64,000 bases of DNA from Sphingopyxis alaskensis RB2256 (lineage in GTDB: Bacteria > Pseudomonadota > Alphaproteobacteria > Sphingomonadales > Sphingomonadaceae). The notes beneath the pieces were generated by a model. It did not search any database and was not told where the DNA came from. It saw only the letters and a program-made list of their open reading frames with translations. Shown here piece after piece: positions 14,539 through 28,436 of the stretch. Every line of letters starts with the position of its first letter. Position 1 is the first letter of the stretch. Both the position numbers and the translations under genes were made by a program. The stretch covers positions 2,979,001-3,043,000 of the forward strand of contig NC_008048.1 in NCBI RefSeq assembly GCF_000013985.1, given 5' to 3'.

Positions 14539-15131
14539 TGCGGCGCCAGTCCGGTCGCGCGCAGCCATGTCAGCAAAGGCAGCATCGGCATGCCGATGAT
14601 GGTCCAGGGGTCGCCCTCGACCCGGTCGAACAATTGCACGCCCGCTCCCTCGATCTCGTAACAGCCGACGGTCCAGCGGATGCTGTCCCAGTTTTGCGCC
14701 ACATAGTCGGCGATGAAGGCATCCGACAAGGGGCGGATCCAGAGCTTCGCCTCGCCGATCGCGCGCCATATCGGGGCGCCATCGCGGGCGGCGACCGCCG
14801 CGCTGAACAACCGGTGGCGCCTCCCCGCCATGCGGCGCAGATGGTCGGCAGCTTCCTCCGGGGTTTCAGGTTTTGCGAGCATCGAGCCGTCGTCGAGCGC
14901 CAGCGTGGAATCGGCGCCGATCACGGTGACGCCCGGAAGCCGCGACGCGATTTTGACCGCCTTCGCCTCGGCGAGCGCGTCGGCGATGTTGCGCGGCGTC
15001 TGCCCCGCCGCACGCAGCGAGGCGGTGAGCATTTCCTCATCGACATGCGCAGCGGTCGTCTCGAACGCCAGCCCGGCGGCGCGCAGCATCGCGGCGCGGC
15101 CGCTGCTTTGCGAGGCAAGGATCAGGGTCAT
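14535..15131 (-). CDS. maf: Maf-family nucleotide pyrophosphatase
   Basis: 198 residues. Maf proteins hydrolyse non-canonical or modified nucleoside triphosphates as a house-cleaning step. The N-terminal motif LILASQSSGRAAMLRAAG, the central VIGADSTLALDD and AKPETPEEA, and YCYEIEGAGV-type C-terminal motif (VGCYEIEGAGVQLF) are present. SQSSGR replaces the more common SxSPRR, which could reflect YceF-type subfamily preference. Coupled by 4-nt overlaps to ppsR and aroE. Confidence 0.92.
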   Translation of the reverse strand: MTLILASQSSGRAAMLRAAGLAFETTAAHVDEEMLTASLRAAGQTPRNIADALAEAKAVKIASRLPGVTVIGADSTLALDDGSMLAKPETPEEAADHLRRMAGRRHRLFSAAVAARDGAPIWRAIGEAKLWIRPLSDAFIADYVAQNWDSIRWTVGCYEIEGAGVQLFDRVEGDPWTIIGMPMLPLLTWLRATGLAPQ

Positions 15132-15940
15132 GCGCTGGCGCGGTCCTCGACGAGCTTGATCACCGCCGCGGCGGTTTCCTCGATCGAGCGGCGCGTGACG
15201 TCGATCACCGGCCAGCCGTTGTCGGCAAACATGCGCCGCGCAAAGGCAAGCTCGGCCTTCACCCGTTCGTCGTCGACATAGCTCGTCTCCGGCGCCTGGT
15301 TCAAAGACAGCAGCCGGTTGCGCCGCACCTGCACCAGCCGGTCGAGTCCCGTGGTAAGCCCGACAACCATCGGGCGTTTCAAGTTGAACAGCGCGCTCGG
15401 CGGCGGCGATTCGGGGACGATCGGGATATTCGCGGTCTTGAATCCGCGGTTGGCGAGATAGATGCTCGTCGGTGTCTTCGACGTGCGCGACACGCCGGCG
15501 AGGATGATGTCGGCCTGCTCCCAATTTTCCCATCCGATGCCGTCGTCGTGCGCAACGGTGAACTGGATCGCCTCGACGCGCGCGAAATAGGCGGCATCGA
15601 GCACATGCTGCCGGCCGGGGCGCGCCTTGGCCTCCTGTCCCAGCATCCGCGAGAGCGCGTCGGTCACCGCGTCGAGCGCGGCGACCGTCGGCAGGTCGAG
15701 CATTCGCGCCCGGCGTTCGAGACTGCTGCGCAGTTCGCCATTGACGAGGGTGAAGAGGATCATGCCGGGGCTCGCCCGCACTTCGGCCATGATCCGGTCC
15801 AGATGCGATTCGGAGCGGACCATCGGCCAGAAATGGCGCACCACCTCGACATCGTCGAACTGCGCGATCGCCGCCTTGGCGATATTTTCGAGCGTTTCGC
15901 CCGTGGAATCGGATATGAGGTGCAGGTGGAGGCGGCTCAT
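15128..15940 (-). CDS. ppsR: Pyruvate, phosphate dikinase/PEP synthase regulatory protein (DUF299 kinase-pyrophosphorylase)
   Basis: 270 residues of the DUF299 family: bifunctional enzymes that inactivate PEP synthase or PPDK by ADP-dependent phosphorylation and reactivate them by phosphorolysis. N-terminal HLHLISDSTGETLENIAKAA is diagnostic, and the P-loop-like GVSRTSKTPTSIYLANRG sits near residue 145. First gene of the leftward operon; its start faces the putative origin. In Caulobacter and Rickettsia a conserved gene is found at this position opposite hemE. Confidence 0.9.
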   Translation of the reverse strand: MSRLHLHLISDSTGETLENIAKAAIAQFDDVEVVRHFWPMVRSESHLDRIMAEVRASPGMILFTLVNGELRSSLERRARMLDLPTVAALDAVTDALSRMLGQEAKARPGRQHVLDAAYFARVEAIQFTVAHDDGIGWENWEQADIILAGVSRTSKTPTSIYLANRGFKTANIPIVPESPPPSALFNLKRPMVVGLTTGLDRLVQVRRNRLLSLNQAPETSYVDDERVKAELAFARRMFADNGWPVIDVTRRSIEETAAAVIKLVEDRASA

Positions 15941-15998
15941 CGCACCACCATGGCGGAAAGCCCCGGAAAAAGGCAATGCCGGATGATCGAAATCGGGC

Positions 15999-16007
15999 TG
16001 TGGATAA
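15999..16007 (-). promoter_or_regulatory. Perfect DnaA box
   Basis: TGTGGATAA, the reverse complement of the consensus TTATCCACA. It lies 59 nt from the ppsR start within the putative origin. Confidence 0.75.
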
Positions 16008-16080
16008 GTTTTCGTATAAGCGCAGGGACAGGTTCGGGACGAGCGATCCATCCCCGCCACTGCCGATTCCGCTGCCATAT

Positions 16081-16089
16081 TTATCCACA
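16081..16089 (+). promoter_or_regulatory. Perfect DnaA box
   Basis: TTATCCACA, identical to the consensus. It is followed closely by two degenerate copies at 16101-16109 and 16113-16121, giving a small cluster. Confidence 0.75.
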
Positions 16090-16277
16090 AGGAATGAATC
16101 TCGTCCACAACCTGTGAATAGGGTGAATATGGTCTGCCGACTCCCCGATCCTGGCCGGATGAACCGGAGTCAAGCTGTTGGCAAAACGGGTGGCCCAGCC
16201 TAAAGCCCGGCTTATCTTTTGACCTACAACCATCACAATCATCTTTAAAACTATATGATGAGAGAAAGAGGGGCCGC

Positions 16278-17306
16278 GTGAAGGCGTCACCGAAGAAGCT
16301 GCTCGCGACGTTGCGCGGAGCGCGGCACGAGCGAACGCCGCTCTGGCTGATGCGCCAGGCCGGGCGCTATCTTCCCGAATATCGCGCCCTTCGCGAGAGC
16401 AAGGGCGGATTCCTCGAGCTGTGCTACGATCCCGAAGCCGCCGCCGAAGTCACGTTGCAGCCGATCCGCCGCTTCGGTTTCGACGGCGCGATCCTTTTCT
16501 CCGACATTCTCGTCATCCCGCACGCGCTCGGCCAGCATCTGTGGTTCGAGGCGGGCGAAGGTCCGCGGCTTGCGCCGCCGCTCGTCGATGGCGCCTTGGC
16601 GTCACTCGAAGCCGCGCCGCAGCGCCTCGATCCCGTCTATGCGACGGTCGCGCGCGTCGCAGCCTCGCTGCCGCCCGAAACGACCTTTCTCGGCTTTGCG
16701 GGCAGCCCGTGGACCGTCGCGACCTATATGGTCGCGGGACGGGGATCGAAGGATCAGGCGGCGGCGCGGCGGATGGCCTTCGCCGACCCGGCCGCGTTCG
16801 GCGCCATCATCGATGCGATTGCCGATCTGACCGTGACCTATTTGTCGGGCCAGATCGAACAGGGCGTCGACGCGGTGCAGCTTTTCGACAGCTGGGCGGG
16901 CAGCCTCAGCCCCGCGCAGTTCGAACAATGGGTGATCGCCCCCAATGCCGGAATCGTCCGCCGTCTGAAGGCGCTGCACCCTGACACGCCGGTGATCGGC
17001 TTTCCGAAGGGCGCGGGGGGCAAGCTTCGTGCCTATGCCGAAGAAACCGGCGTCGATGCGATCGGCCTCGACGAAACGGTCGATCCGACATGGGCCGATG
17101 CCGCCTTGCCGTCACAGCTGCCCGTCCAGGGCAATCTCGACCCGCTCGCGCTCGTTGCGGGTGGTGCGGCGCTCGATGCCGCGATCGACCGCATCCTTGC
17201 GGCTTTTCCGTCGCGCCCCCATATCTTCAATCTGGGCCACGGGATCGTTCCCGACACCCCGGTTGCCCATGTCGAACATCTCATCAAGCGCGTTCGCGGC
17301 GGATAA
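16278..17306 (+). CDS. hemE: Uroporphyrinogen decarboxylase
   Basis: 342 residues. Decarboxylates uroporphyrinogen III to coproporphyrinogen III in heme synthesis. The signature WLMRQAGRYLPEYR lies at residues ~22-36; other family motifs are AILFSDILVIPHALG, GFAGSPWTVATYM, LFDSWAGSLSP and FNLGHGIVPDTP. It starts at GTG 16278 just after an A/G-rich stretch; no ATG in frame precedes the conserved region. First rightward gene from the putative origin, with hemJ one nucleotide downstream. Confidence 0.96.
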   Translation: MKASPKKLLATLRGARHERTPLWLMRQAGRYLPEYRALRESKGGFLELCYDPEAAAEVTLQPIRRFGFDGAILFSDILVIPHALGQHLWFEAGEGPRLAPPLVDGALASLEAAPQRLDPVYATVARVAASLPPETTFLGFAGSPWTVATYMVAGRGSKDQAAARRMAFADPAAFGAIIDAIADLTVTYLSGQIEQGVDAVQLFDSWAGSLSPAQFEQWVIAPNAGIVRRLKALHPDTPVIGFPKGAGGKLRAYAEETGVDAIGLDETVDPTWADAALPSQLPVQGNLDPLALVAGGAALDAAIDRILAAFPSRPHIFNLGHGIVPDTPVAHVEHLIKRVRGG

Positions 17307-19232: not shown

Positions 19233-19955
19233 ATGCTGGATATTTTGATGCAGGCCGGCGTGCACGCCGGCGGATTTGGCGGACCCGCGGGCATGTGGGA
19301 CGCGATCGTCCACGATTTTTCGAACATCACCGAACCCGCGGCCTTCGCCGCCTTCCTGCAGGTGTTGATGATCGACATCGTGCTCGCGGGCGACAATGCG
19401 ATCGTCGTCGGCGCGCTCGCGGCGGGACTTCCCGCCGACCAGCGGCGCAAGGTTATCATCATCGGTGTGCTAGCAGCGCTCGTGCTGCGCGTCGCCTTTG
19501 CTCTCGTCGTGACGCAGCTGATGCAGATCGTCGGGCTGATCTTCGTCGGCGGGCTGCTGCTTATCTGGGTGGCGTGGAAGATGTGGCGCGAACTGCGCGA
19601 CGGCGCGCATTCGGCGGGGTCGCCCGAAGTCGTCGGCGACGAACATTCGGGCCTCAAGCCCGCCAAGAGCTTTGCCGGTGCCGCCTGGGCGGTTGCCGTC
19701 GCCGACGTCAGCATGAGCCTCGACAATGTGCTGGCGGTCGCGGGCGCGGCGCGCGATCACCCCGGCATCCTGATCGTCGGCCTGATCTTCGCGGTCGCAT
19801 TGATGGGTATCGCAGCCAACATCATCGCCAAATATATCGAGCGCTATCGCTGGATCGCCTATCTCGGCCTCGCAGTGATCGTCTATGTCGCGATCAAGAT
19901 GATCTACGAAGGCTGGATCGACCCCGGCGTCGGCATCGGCACGCTTTTCGGCTGA
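19233..19955 (+). CDS. TerC/YjbE-family integral membrane protein
   Basis: 240 residues with about seven predicted helices. TerC family motifs: MIDIVLAGDNAIVVGALAAGL in the first core helix and VADVSMSLDNVLAVAGAA in the repeat, each with the conserved Asp-Asn of putative metal transporters. Members have been linked to Mn2+ export (YkoY/YceF class) and tellurite resistance; this one is unassigned. It starts 22 nt after rho; the GTG at 19227 and ATG at 19233 are both possible. An imperfect inverted repeat follows the gene. Confidence 0.88.
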   Translation: MLDILMQAGVHAGGFGGPAGMWDAIVHDFSNITEPAAFAAFLQVLMIDIVLAGDNAIVVGALAAGLPADQRRKVIIIGVLAALVLRVAFALVVTQLMQIVGLIFVGGLLLIWVAWKMWRELRDGAHSAGSPEVVGDEHSGLKPAKSFAGAAWAVAVADVSMSLDNVLAVAGAARDHPGILIVGLIFAVALMGIAANIIAKYIERYRWIAYLGLAVIVYVAIKMIYEGWIDPGVGIGTLFG

Positions 19956-19961
19956 ATCTCT

Positions 19962-20018
19962 TCGGTGAATCGAGTCTTTTCGGTCACAGTTTGACTCAAA
20001 ATGGATTCGGTTCACCGA
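19962..20018 (+). terminator. Imperfect inverted repeat after the TerC-family gene
   Basis: TCGGTGAA (19962-19969) pairs with TTCACCGA (20011-20018), and GAGTC (19972-19976) with GACTC (19993-19997), giving a bulged hairpin. It may stop transcription from the origin-proximal cluster; no U-run follows. Confidence 0.35.
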
Positions 20019-20078
20019 TTGAGGGATTCTCTTTCCGCAAATTTGTGAGAGTATCCTCCAGTCGGAGGAGGTCGGTTC

Positions 20079-20324
20079 ATGGACCAGCTACAAGCCGAGG
20101 TTGATCGCAATTACGATTGGTTTCAGCGTAACTTGAAAACTTTCCTTGTCGATCATGATGGGGATTATGCAGTGTTGCGTGGCGAAGCGGTGCAGGGATT
20201 TTATCAATCGCCCGGCGAGGCATTGCGGACTGCACTCGCTCAGTTTCCCGATCGAATTTTTTCGATTCAGCAAGTCGTCGATGAACCTCTCGATTTAGGA
20301 TTTCTATCGCTTGCCGTCGATTGA
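20079..20324 (+). CDS. Small DUF5678-like protein
   Basis: 81 residues: MDQLQAEVDRNYDWFQRN at the start, then LVDHDGDYAVLRGEAVQGF, and FSIQQVVDEPLDLGFLS at the end. The pattern (aromatic N-terminal helix, H-x-G-x-Y-A-V-L-R strand, spaced alanine helix) resembles DUF5678-type proteins that often precede retropepsin-like genes. A GGAGGAGG sits about 9 nt before the ATG. Base composition is clearly less GC-rich than the surrounding genes. It overlaps the next gene by 14 nt. Function unknown. Confidence 0.65.
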   Translation: MDQLQAEVDRNYDWFQRNLKTFLVDHDGDYAVLRGEAVQGFYQSPGEALRTALAQFPDRIFSIQQVVDEPLDLGFLSLAVD

Positions 20325-24005: not shown

Positions 24006-24021
24006 CGTTCCACGTGAAACA
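24006..24021. other. parS-like ParB-binding site 1
   Basis: CGTTCCACGTGAAACA, one base off the palindromic chromosomal parS consensus at its first position plus one arm difference. It lies right after the mnmE stop codon. Confidence 0.75.
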
Positions 24022-24080: not shown

Positions 24081-25940
24081 ATGCACAGCAGCGCAACATT
24101 CGATGTCATCGTCGTTGGCGGTGGACATGCCGGGACCGAGGCTGCCGCGGCCGCGGCGCGGCTGGGCGCGCGGGTGGCGCTGGTCAGTTTCGACCCGACG
24201 CTGATCGGAACGATGTCGTGCAACCCGGCGATCGGCGGGCTCGGCAAGGGCCATTTGATGCGCGAGGTCGACGCGCTCGACGGGTGGATGGCGCGCGCGG
24301 CCGACGCCGCCGCGATCCATTACCGGATGCTCAACGCATCGAAGGGTGCGGCGGTGCAGGGTCCGCGCATCCAGGCCGATCGCAAGCTCTATCGCGCCGC
24401 GATCCAGACGCTGCTGGCAGCGGAGGAGGGGATCACGGTCGTTGCAGGCGAAGCGGCGGCTCTGCGACTATCCAACGGGGGGCGGATCGCAGGACTCGAT
24501 CTCGCCGACGGGACGGCGCTCACGGCGCGCGCGGTTGTGCTCGCGACGGGTACTTTCCTCGGCGGACGACTGTTCCGCGGCGAAGAACGGATGGAGGGTG
24601 GCCGGATCGGCGAAGCGGGGTCGCACCGTCTCGCCGGGCAGCTTCGCGCCGCCCACCTGCCGATGGCGCGGCTCAAGACGGGCACGCCGCCGCGCCTCGA
24701 TGGCCGCACGATCGACTGGGCGCGGTTGCAGGAACAGCCGTCGGATGGCGGACGCTGGACCTGTTCCACGTGGAACAACGCGCGGACGGTGCCGCAGATT
24801 TTCTGCGCAATCACGCGCACCAACGCCGAATCGCACCGGATCATCGCCGAAAACCTGCATCGCTCGCCGCTCTTTACCGGCGCGATCGGTGCGGCGGGGC
24901 CGCGTTATTGCCCGTCGATCGAGGACAAGATCCACCGCTTTGCCGATCGCGACGGGCATCAGGTGTTTCTGGAGCCCGAGGGGCTTGATACGCATCTGGT
25001 CTATCCCAATGGCATTTCGACTTCGCTGCCCGCCGATGTGCAACTGGCGATGCTGCGCACGATCGAGGGGCTGGAGGCGGTCGAGATGGTCGTGCCCGGC
25101 TATGCGGTCGAATATGACCATATCGACCCGCGTGCGCTCGACCGGACGTTGCAGGTGCGCGCGATGCCGGGGGTCTGGTGTGCGGGACAGATCAACGGCA
25201 CGACGGGATATGAGGAGGCCGCGGCGCAGGGGCTGGTCGCGGGCGCCAATGCCGCGCTCGCCGTGCAGGGGCGCGAGCCGCTGATCCTCGACCGGAGCGA
25301 ATCCTATATCGGGGTGATGGTCGACGACCTGGTGTTGCAGGGCGTGACCGAGCCGTACCGGATGCTCACCGCGCGCGCCGAATATCGGCTGCGGCTGCGC
25401 GCCGACAATGCGGCGACCCGGCTGACGCCGAAGGGGATTGCACTGGGGCTGGTGCGGCCGGCGACCGCGGCGCTGTTTGCCAGGAGGATGGCCGAGCGGG
25501 CGCGGGCCGGGGCGCTGCTCGAAGCGCCGGTGGCGACCGCCGATTATGGGGCGATCGGCTTGCCGCTGCCCGGCGACGGGATCGCGCGGCGGCGAATCGA
25601 CCTGTTGCGCTTTCCCGGTGCGACGGTCGAGCGGTTGACGATTCTGGTTCCCGAGATCGAATCGATCGATCGCGCGATCCTGTCCGAAGTCGTCGAAGAT
25701 GCGCATTATGCGCCCTATATCGCGCGGCACGAAGCCGAGCTGCGCGCGCTCGCAGCAAATGAGGCGATCCTGCTCGATCCCGCGCTCGACTATGCCGCGA
25801 TCGGCGGCCTGTCGCGCGAAATGGTCGAGCGGCTGAGCAAGGCACGCCCCGAAACGCTGGGACAGGCGGCGCGAATTGATGGCGTGACGCCCGCGGCGCT
25901 GACGGCGATCATGGTGCATAGCCGGCGGCGCGCGGCCTGA
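24081..25940 (+). CDS. mnmG: tRNA uridine-5-carboxymethylaminomethyl modification enzyme MnmG (GidA)
   Basis: 619 residues. FAD-dependent partner of MnmE. Dinucleotide-binding [23 protein letters not shown] at residues 6-28, then [44 protein letters not shown], and the late [17 protein letters not shown] and [13 protein letters not shown], all family hallmarks. The ATG at 24081 aligns with other family starts; a GTG at 24024 would add 19 residues. A perfect parS palindrome is embedded in the coding sequence at 24772-24787. Confidence 0.96.
24772..24787. other. parS-like ParB-binding site 2 (inside mnmG)
   Basis: TGTTCCACGTGGAACA, a perfect 16-bp palindrome. It codes for CSTWN in mnmG, so the site is accommodated within a conserved gene. 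Confidence 0.8.
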
Positions 25941-26034: not shown

Positions 26035-26697
26035 GTGAGCGCTGCCGAACTCTTGAAGGATGAACGCGCTGCACGCGGCTGGCTGACGCAGGCGTTTGCG
26101 CCTTCGACCGAACAATGGGCGCAGATCGAGCGCTTTGTCACGATGCTGATTGCCGAGAATGCGAAGCAGAATCTGATCGCCGCGTCGACGATCCCGGCCA
26201 TCTGGGCGCGGCATATTGCCGACAGCGCGCAGTTGCTGGCGCTCGATACGCGTGAGGGCGAGGGACTCTGGATCGACCTGGGCAGCGGGCCGGGGCTTCC
26301 GGGCCTTGTCGTCGCGATTCTGTCGGAGCGGCCGATGCTGCTCGTCGAATCGCGGCGCCGCCGCTGCGATTTCCTGCGCGCGGTTGTGGCCGAGCTGGCG
26401 CTGGACCATGTCGAGGTCGCCGAGGCGCCGCTCGAGCGCGTGGCAACGCGCCCGGCGGCGACGATCAGCGCGCGCGCCTTTGCTCCGCTCGACCGGCTCA
26501 TCGACTTATCCGCGCGTTTTTCCACCGAATCGACGCGCTGGCTGCTGCCAAAGGGGCGAAATGCGGTTAAGGAACTGGCGTTGCTGCCCGAGCCATGGCA
26601 GAGAATGTTTCACGTGGAACAGAGCCGCACCGACGCCGAAAGCGGCATTTTGGTCGGCACGGGGCGTATCGCGCCGAAAAAGCGAGGGAAAGCATGA
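26035..26697 (+). CDS. rsmG: 16S rRNA (guanine-527-N7) methyltransferase
   Basis: 220 residues from GTG 26035, which is preceded by GGAAAG; an in-frame ATG at 25996 lies at the edge of the repeat and is less likely. SAM-binding motif WIDLGSGPGLPGLVVA near residue 82, with NLIAASTIPAIWARHIADSAQL upstream and ISARAFAPLDRLIDL downstream. Stop overlaps the parA start by 4 nt. A parS site lies in its 3' part. Confidence 0.94.
   Translation: MSAAELLKDERAARGWLTQAFAPSTEQWAQIERFVTMLIAENAKQNLIAASTIPAIWARHIADSAQLLALDTREGEGLWIDLGSGPGLPGLVVAILSERPMLLVESRRRRCDFLRAVVAELALDHVEVAEAPLERVATRPAATISARAFAPLDRLIDLSARFSTESTRWLLPKGRNAVKELALLPEPWQRMFHVEQSRTDAESGILVGTGRIAPKKRGKA
26606..26621. other. parS-like ParB-binding site 3 (inside rsmG)
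   Basis: TGTTTCACGTGGAACA, one base from the perfect palindrome. It lies 73 nt before the parA start, in the rsmG coding sequence (reads FHVEQ). Confidence 0.8.
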
Positions 26698-27476
26698 TCC
26701 GCATTGCCGTGGCAAACCAGAAGGGGGGGGTCGGCAAGACGACGACTGCGATCAATCTGGCGACCGCGCTCGCGGCGACGGGCTGGCGGACGCTGATTAT
26801 CGACCTCGACCCGCAGGGTAATGCGTCGACCGGCCTCGGCATCAAGCAGTCGCAGCGCGAATGTTCGAGTTACGAACTGCTGCGCGGCGATGCGGGCGTC
26901 GCCGAATGCGCGATACCGACCGCGGTGCCGCGGCTCGACATCGTCAGCGCGACGGTCGATCTGTCGGGCGCCGAGATCGAACTGATCGAATATCAGGATC
27001 GGCTCCACCGGCTGCAGAAAGCGCTGTCGGGCGCCGAAGCGGGGCAATGGGATATTTGCCTGATCGACTGTCCGCCGTCGCTGGGGATGCTGACCTTGAA
27101 CGCGCTCATCGCCGCCGAATCGCTGATCGTGCCGCTGCAATGCGAATTTTTCGCGCTCGAGGGGCTGAGCCAGCTGCTCACGACGGTCGAGCGCGTGCGC
27201 GAGCGCTTCAACCAGAAACTGTCGATCCTCGGCGTCGCGCTCACCATGTTCGACCGCCGCAACCGGCTGACCGACCAGGTGTCCGACGATGTGCGCGAGG
27301 TGCTGGGGCCGGTGGTGTTCGACACGGTGATCCCGCGCAATGTGCGCCTGTCCGAGGCGCCGAGCCATGGGCTTCCCGCGCTGATCTATGACCATCGCTG
27401 CGCCGGGTCGGCGGCCTATATCGCGCTCGCGCGCGAGATGATCGACCGGCTTCCCGAGATTCGCAAGGCGGCATAA
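26694..27476 (+). CDS. parA: Chromosome partitioning ATPase ParA (Soj)
   Basis: 260 residues. Deviant Walker A motif ANQKGGVGKTTTAINLA at residues 7-23, Walker A' IIDLDPQGNASTGLG and Walker B-type CLIDCPPSLGMLTLNALIAA. Forms DNA-bound gradients that move ParB-parS complexes after origin replication. Starts at ATG 26694 (ATGA overlap with rsmG) and ends directly against the parB start. Confidence 0.96.
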   Translation: MIRIAVANQKGGVGKTTTAINLATALAATGWRTLIIDLDPQGNASTGLGIKQSQRECSSYELLRGDAGVAECAIPTAVPRLDIVSATVDLSGAEIELIEYQDRLHRLQKALSGAEAGQWDICLIDCPPSLGMLTLNALIAAESLIVPLQCEFFALEGLSQLLTTVERVRERFNQKLSILGVALTMFDRRNRLTDQVSDDVREVLGPVVFDTVIPRNVRLSEAPSHGLPALIYDHRCAGSAAYIALAREMIDRLPEIRKAA

Positions 27477-28436
27477 ATGTCTGATAAAAAGGAAGAAAAC
27501 GCCGTAACACCGCCCCGCAAACGCCCATCGGGACTGGGCCGCGGGCTGAACGCGCTGTTCGGCGATGTCGCGGTCGAGGCGCCGGTGCTCGCGACGCCGG
27601 GCGGTGCGGCGCGCGCCGCGCCGGTCGCGGGCGATGCGGTGCAGCATATAGCCGTCGGCGCGATTCGCCCGCTGCCAGGTCAGCCGCGCCGCCATTTCGA
27701 CGAGGCGGCGATCGCCGAACTCGCCGATTCGATCGGCTCGCGCGGCTTGCTGCAGCCGATCATCGTGCGCCGGTCGCCCGATGGTGAGGGTTTCCAGCTT
27801 GTCGCGGGCGAACGCCGCTGGCGCGCGGCGCAGCGCGCGGGGTTGCACCAGATCCCGGCGCTCGTGCGCGAGCTCGACGACGCCGCGACCTATGAGATTG
27901 CGCTCGTCGAAAATATCCAGCGCCAGGATCTGAACGCGATCGAAGAGGCGAGCGCCTATCGCCGGTTGATCGAGGATTTCGGCCATAATCAGGAGGCGCT
28001 GGCGAAGCTGGTCGGCAAGTCGCGCAGCCATGTCGCGAACCTGATGCGCCTGCTCGACCTGCCGCAAGCCGTGCAGGCGCTCGTCGGCGACGGATCGCTC
28101 GCGATGGGGCACGCGCGCGCGCTGATCGGCGCCGACGACCCCGAAGCGATTGCGCGGCGGGTGGTCAGGGACGGGCTGTCGGTGCGCGCGGTCGAGGCGC
28201 TGGTGCGCGCGGGCAAGGAGGGCGGACGCAAGGCGCCGCTCGAATATAAGAGCATCGACGGCGTCGGCGGACGCGACCCCGACATCGTTGCGGTCGAGCG
28301 CCATCTGTCCGAACTGCTCGGCATCGCCGTCGCGATCCAGTATGCGGGCGGCGGCAAGGGTGCGTTGACGCTGAAATTCGCGTCGCTCGACCAGCTCGAC
28401 ATGATCTGCCAGCGGCTGAGCGGCGAGGGCATCTGA
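27477..28436 (+). CDS. parB: Chromosome partitioning protein ParB (Spo0J)
   Basis: 319 residues. N-terminal RPSGLGRGLNALFGD is the ParA-stimulating peptide. The CTPase/ParB domain has QPRRHFDEAAIAELADSIGSRGLLQPIIV and VAGERRWRAAQRAGL, followed by ENIQRQDLNAIEEASAYRRL and the helix-turn-helix LVGKSRSHVANLMRLLDLP. C-terminal dimerisation region FASLDQLDMICQRL. ATG immediately follows the parA stop. Its targets are the three parS-like sites 0.9-3.5 kb upstream. Confidence 0.96.
   Translation: MSDKKEENAVTPPRKRPSGLGRGLNALFGDVAVEAPVLATPGGAARAAPVAGDAVQHIAVGAIRPLPGQPRRHFDEAAIAELADSIGSRGLLQPIIVRRSPDGEGFQLVAGERRWRAAQRAGLHQIPALVRELDDAATYEIALVENIQRQDLNAIEEASAYRRLIEDFGHNQEALAKLVGKSRSHVANLMRLLDLPQAVQALVGDGSLAMGHARALIGADDPEAIARRVVRDGLSVRAVEALVRAGKEGGRKAPLEYKSIDGVGGRDPDIVAVERHLSELLGIAVAIQYAGGGKGALTLKFASLDQLDMICQRLSGEGI

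Follow-up and report, generated by a model that had tools for sequence, protein, structure and literature searches.

The ppsR-hemE gap as predicted chromosomal replication origin of Sphingopyxis alaskensis RB2256

CtrA sites are a hallmark of the Caulobacter replication origin. Views diverge on how widely such sites occur: one account does not see them in origins besides those of Caulobacter and possibly Rickettsia (PMC4468827), and a contrary one describes them as predicted in Wolbachia and others (PMC1914354). The earlier note on the DNA studied here had stated that the Caulobacter origin lies beside hemE, and hemE and COG1806 are indeed given as its borders (PMC1914354). Within Sphingopyxis, Ori-Finder has put the origin of S. 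granuli near hemE, an alignment across the genus is reported to show that DnaA boxes and a DUE are conserved, and it has been stated that the DoriC entry for the S. alaskensis origin should move to the hemE region (PMC4741004, 2016). Since this location has already been proposed for S. alaskensis, the origin prediction followed up here is very probably correct but known.

The genome consists of two contigs with 3,373,713 bases in total. The chromosome, C2, comprises 3,345,170 bases, the length given for strain RB2256 / DSM 13593 (PMC5989583, PMC5405348). The other contig, C1 (L006), amounts to 28.5 kb by subtraction and represents a second replicon; 3 kb of it match a Novosphingobium plasmid at 93.8% (nickel-dependent hydrogenase gene). 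The window, i.e. the whole stretch of DNA analyzed, is 64 kb long (C2:2979001-3043000). It contains the gap that very probably serves this Sphingopyxis as its only chromosomal oriC. Its position between hemE and the COG1806/DUF299 gene ppsR is that of hemE-type alphaproteobacterial origins. The flanking genes diverge as the earlier note had described, ppsR being encoded on the minus and hemE on the plus strand (Table 1). PF03618, the family of PpsR, was formerly called DUF299. The minus strand continues beyond ppsR with genes for Maf, AroE, CoaE and a DnaQ-like exonuclease, and a DUF299-maf-aroE-coaE-dnaQ series is presumably also present at the Caulobacter origin on the flank away from hemE. 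The dnaA gene resides at C2:125-1534, 350 kb from the gap, and the deposited record begins at dnaA.

Table 1. Features of the proposed origin and its surroundings (window positions; C2, chromosome)
Feature	Position	Strand	Remarks
ppsR-hemE intergenic gap, proposed oriC	15941..16277 (C2:2994941-2995277)	.	box, GANTC and stability evidence; length kept in relatives
ppsR (kinase/pyrophosphorylase), left flank	15128..15940	-	PF03618, E 3.3e-94
hemE, right flank	16278..17306	+	TIGR01464, above its cut-off
DnaA box 1, exact consensus TTATCCACA	15999..16007	-	box with ≤1 mismatch in this column in 52/75 aligned gaps
DnaA box 2, exact consensus TTATCCACA	16081..16089	+	box with ≤1 mismatch here in 11/75 rows
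DnaA box 3, degenerate TCGTCCACA, 2 mismatches	16101..16109	+	≤1 mismatch in 27/75 rows
DnaA box 4, degenerate CTATTCACA, 2 mismatches	16113..16121	-	≤1 mismatch in 34/75 rows
Four GANTC (CcrM-type) sites, starts 16065, 16096, 16139, 16167	16065..16171	.	
Putative hemE promoter, TTGGCA, 17-bp spacer, TAAAGC	16178..16206	+	sequence reading; both elements conserved in aligned relatives
Candidate duplex unwinding element, least stable, AT-rich	16211..16270	.	A+T content and stability
Three parS-like sites	24007-24020, 24763-24776, 26607-26620 (C2:3003007-3005620)	.	sole genome matches at ≤1 mismatch
parA and parB	26691..28436	+	

Several DnaA boxes, two exact and two degenerate, are found in the gap, as is typical of hemE-type origins. 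The two perfect boxes announced by the earlier note are present at 15999-16007 and 16081-16089, and the two weaker ones it mentioned correspond to 16101-16109 and 16113-16121 with two mismatches each. Box 1 stands alone toward ppsR, while boxes 2 to 4 assemble in the middle of the gap and are followed by a promoter-like pair, an unstable stretch and hemE. The observed two exact boxes per 337 nt compare with an expectation of 0.0003 from the composition of the window and of 0.0023 from that of the gap itself, and two were never reached when the gap was shuffled 1000 times with its dinucleotides preserved. The whole genome contains six exact boxes, and the two in the gap, with starts 82 bp apart, form the only close pair among them. 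When read backwards, the same pattern yields 11 genome matches as compared to these six, and the DnaA box is thus not common overall. In a weighted scan for box clusters that covered 736 kb, the remaining chromosome being searched for exact boxes only, the gap ranked first (score 10, next 8, with weights of our own choice). Counting only boxes with at most one mismatch gives three for a cluster at dnaA and two for the gap.

The arrangement recurs in related organisms. The hemE neighbourhoods of the 80 top-ranking matches, out of at least 593, were compared, and ppsR is situated divergently upstream of hemE in 74. Three loci provided no gap (L026 ends before ppsR, and no ppsR was seen in L032 and L084). 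Three others (L041, L060, L062) lack a ppsR match, yet a gap of similar length precedes hemE, measuring 319-342 bp when bounded by the end of the maf match. Of the 78 usable gaps, window included, those of L082, L083 and L086 were excluded (hemE identity 57-58%), giving 75 Sphingomonadales-like gaps, a few of them from records whose titles name no order and two titled Microvirga (L038) and Bacillus (L052). Their median length is 316 bp (range 271-427), and 63 of the 75 fall within 290-360 bp. Together they contain 55 exact boxes versus none in 20 shuffled sets and 173 boxes with at most one mismatch versus 4.7 after shuffling, sums that are inflated by relatedness. An exact box is absent from 38 of the 75, and at least one box with no more than one mismatch occurs in 72. 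Across the 74 related loci, 52 exact boxes reside in 24.5 kb of gap sequence as opposed to 11 in 723 kb outside. Box strengths are not fixed: in four aligned, Sphingopyxis-like close relatives they are swapped, with TTGTCCACA at box 2 and exact TTATCCACA at box 3. A box with at most one mismatch is furthermore present near box 2, in the column of 16069, in 14/75 aligned gaps.

An AT-rich, unstable stretch as expected of a hemE-type origin lies next to hemE. The AT-rich block that the earlier note had seen near 16229-16270 corresponds to the 42-mer with the highest A+T content in the gap (71%), which starts at 16228 and ranks third among separate places in the window. Starting at 16211, the gap has a 50-bp segment, its least stable, that is exceeded in instability by just 23 of 63,951 window positions. 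The most AT-rich 40-mer begins no more than 70 bases from hemE in 66 of the 78 gaps. A conserved purine-rich stretch ahead of the hemE start probably serves as ribosome-binding site, and the promoter-like pair, itself within the proposed origin, precedes the candidate unwinding region.

The position of the terminus bears on the question whether replication might instead start at dnaA, the gap being merely a promoter region for hemE and ppsR under DnaA control, which we consider very improbable. With the E. coli dif pattern, the genome yields a single match at up to two mismatches (C2:1314814-1314834). It lies 8 kb from the antipode of the gap, nearly opposite as expected of a functional bacterial oriC, versus 358 kb from that of dnaA, and the arms from gap to dif measure 1,664,885 and 1,680,285 bases. 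In 11 of 12 family genomes, hand-picked from 59 because hemE, dnaA and a dif-like match share a single contig that makes up at least about 80% of the genome, dif is nearer to the hemE antipode than to the dnaA antipode. The median offsets are 3.9% (hemE) and 15.9% (dnaA) of the contig, with all contigs assumed to be circular, even in those genomes that consist of several. The exception, G033, carries dif opposite dnaA and speaks for an origin there. Where a genome offered several dif-like matches, the one of the family form was chosen; that of G007 is less similar to this form. Omitted were G015, G026 and G045 (large single contig, dif-like match absent), G057 (sole match departing from the family form), G052 (contig covering about 76% of its genome) and G002, in which dnaA is on another contig and dif, about 320 kb from the hemE antipode of that contig, fits poorly.

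KOPS-like octamers (plus to minus strand) have counts of 14 to 24 over the 286 kb to the left of the gap and of 14 to 3 over the initial 100 kb of C2; from hemE to dnaA they number 41 to 20, the polarity expected of an origin at hemE. Two-arm fits were run on 64 sampled stretches (516 kb). For the octamers, the best origin is at 2.99 Mb. For GC skew, the error is 338 without a switch, 217.0 at the optimum (2.66-2.72 Mb), 217.7 at 2.99 Mb and, much worse, 270-284 at dnaA, clearly favouring hemE over dnaA. The optimum of the TA-skew fit lies at another place, and this fit does not distinguish between hemE and dnaA. Together with the antipodal dif site, octamer polarity and GC-skew fit support the assignment of oriC to the gap made in the earlier note, and the parS cluster, which that note put about 8 kb from the origin, is located 7.9-10.5 kb from the centre of the gap. 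The GC-skew minimum suggested there as a check gave a mixed result. The nearest dip of the cumulative curve over contiguous 736 kb, at 2,984,379 (+56), is indeed only 11 kb left of the gap, but the minimum, at 2,742,908 (-75), is 252 kb to the left and another shallow dip occurs by dnaA, so that the curve neither refutes nor confirms the origin. From 3.089 Mb to the end of the record, skew is negative in 17 of 26 ten-kb bins, which is unexpected for an origin at hemE. The signal is weak, and GC skew was therefore rejected as decisive on its own. Gene orientation as a whole does not discriminate between the sites: by crude gene calls, 126 of 205 genes left of the gap are on the minus strand, as expected (79 on plus), from hemE to dnaA the expected plus strand carries only 156 of 289, and right of dnaA just 20 of 65 are on plus, against co-orientation under either origin.

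The case for dnaA draws on its shallow skew dip, with slightly negative skew ahead of the gene, and on three consecutive one-mismatch boxes at its stop codon (C2:1532-1576), more boxes of this quality than the gap offers, albeit with the lower weighted score of 8 versus 10. However, the least stable 50 bp of C2:1401-1800 are far more stable than those of the gap (-1.435 versus -1.158 kcal/mol per step). Moreover, at least two boxes with no more than one mismatch occur in the 3' flank of dnaA in just 3 of 30 family loci (30 of 59 matches), as opposed to 25 of 30 within 350 bases before hemE (30 of 58 matches), the two samples representing different genome sets. According to PMC8116508, dnaA is not conserved near the origin in Sphingomonadales. 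The three boxes at the stop codon (L089:1532-1576) lie outside the window; Sphingopyxis locus L190 has two at the same place, and L205, the third family locus with at least two boxes, has them further downstream. This small cluster in Sphingopyxis is a mildly new observation and perhaps constitutes a DnaA-titration or autoregulatory site. Elsewhere on C2, weak Bac_DnaA matches occur in identically scoring pairs (426262 and 1302632; 440983 and 856660) and are probably repeated insertion-sequence helper genes of an apparently IstB-like kind.

Least probable of all is an origin at a third place, with the boxes in the gap devoted only to transcriptional control of hemE and ppsR: the conserved promoter-like pair and purine-rich stretch, the extended skew plateau between 2.74 and 2.98 Mb and the GC-fit optimum at 2.66-2.72 Mb, by a narrow margin, leave room for it, but the scanned 736 kb contain no box cluster of equal weighted score, the genome has no second close pair of exact boxes, and dif antipode and parS both indicate the gap.

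With the ppsR-hemE gap taken as the origin, its sites for regulatory proteins deserve attention. Sites of the type TTAA-N7-TTAA with at most one mismatch are absent from the gap, and it does not resemble a Caulobacter-like, CtrA-controlled origin in this respect. Over the 75 gaps such full sites stay at chance level (5 versus 5.0 in shuffles), and the CtrA half-site TTAACCAT is found 0 times in the gap and 7 times over the 75 versus 13.9 in shuffles. An IHF site also belongs to the description of hemE-type origins. A loose IHF motif with two mismatches allowed matches five times in the gap versus 3.1 after shuffling, a count equalled or exceeded by 219 of 1000 shuffles, and 312 times over the 75 gaps versus 202 (sd 12). 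GANTC sites behave differently. Within the gap alone, four sites are unremarkable, as 70 of 1000 shuffles reach four and denser places exist elsewhere in the window; the densest GANTC cluster of the window has six starts in 200 bp (19954-20153). Over the 75 gaps, the motif totals 344 versus 103 in shuffled sets, an about threefold enrichment. Its density is 14.0 per kb in gaps versus 1.9 in the rest of the same loci and 4.6 in other ORF-free stretches, of which just 4.6 kb were examined. The column of 16139 is occupied in 50 and that of 16167 in 24 of the 75 aligned gaps. The genome encodes GcrA and also a protein with a RAMA domain as in CcrM, which may thus be CcrM itself.

It is conceivable, if rather unlikely, that Sphingomonadales origins are controlled by methylation of the conserved GANTC cluster by CcrM, possibly read by GcrA, in place of direct CtrA binding. 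If so, a hemE-type origin with strong DnaA boxes would be limited to one firing per cycle by hemimethylation after passage of the fork. Two statements in PMC8116508 count against this reading: CtrA reportedly affects replication in Sphingomonas melonis, and intergenic GANTC enrichment is described for most alphaproteobacterial chromosomes. A limited literature search, including PMC8116508 and PMC2877005 as far as their text was available, returned no description of a GANTC cluster at a Sphingomonadales origin, and the conserved GANTC-rich, CtrA-site-poor anatomy can be called mildly new.

Judging from sequence and conservation, DnaA would bind the two strong boxes and spread onto the two weak ones beside box 2. 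The resulting filament may open the AT-rich stretch just ahead of hemE, the likely order being DnaA assembly on boxes 2-4, opening and helicase loading. As the unstable stretch would fall in the transcribed hemE leader, transcription might aid opening; for Caulobacter, a promoter has been proposed to play a role, but the means by which RNA synthesis stimulates replication are described as unclear (PMC4468827). Two forks would then travel to dif, which is positioned almost exactly half a chromosome away, and ParB bound to the parS cluster, 8-10 kb off, may organize the new origins, as genes and sites suggest. More speculatively, the conserved GANTC sites would stay hemimethylated on new DNA until their methylation by CcrM, and this state might limit re-initiation or tune hemE transcription.

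Our analysis provides independent evidence for where this marine oligotroph starts replication, a matter of consequence for growth estimates from read depth and for gene-dosage studies, and the family comparison speaks for hemE rather than dnaA as a marker of the origin in the family. The gap resembles Cori of Caulobacter crescentus in its boundary genes hemE and COG1806, its DnaA boxes and an AT-rich stretch of about 40 bp (PMC1914354). It differs from Cori, for which five CtrA sites are described (PMC1914354), in having none at up to one mismatch, and it features two exact DnaA boxes, whereas only moderate G-boxes and very weak W-boxes are reported for Cori (PMC4468827). The Rickettsia origin shares the boundary genes hemE and COG1806 and is set apart by predicted CtrA sites and, in R. 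prowazekii, by a region of about 82% A+T (PMC1914354). The closest counterparts are the predicted origins of Sphingopyxis granuli TFA and other Sphingopyxis, which occupy the same place and, as far as described in PMC4741004, show no essential difference from the S. alaskensis gap.
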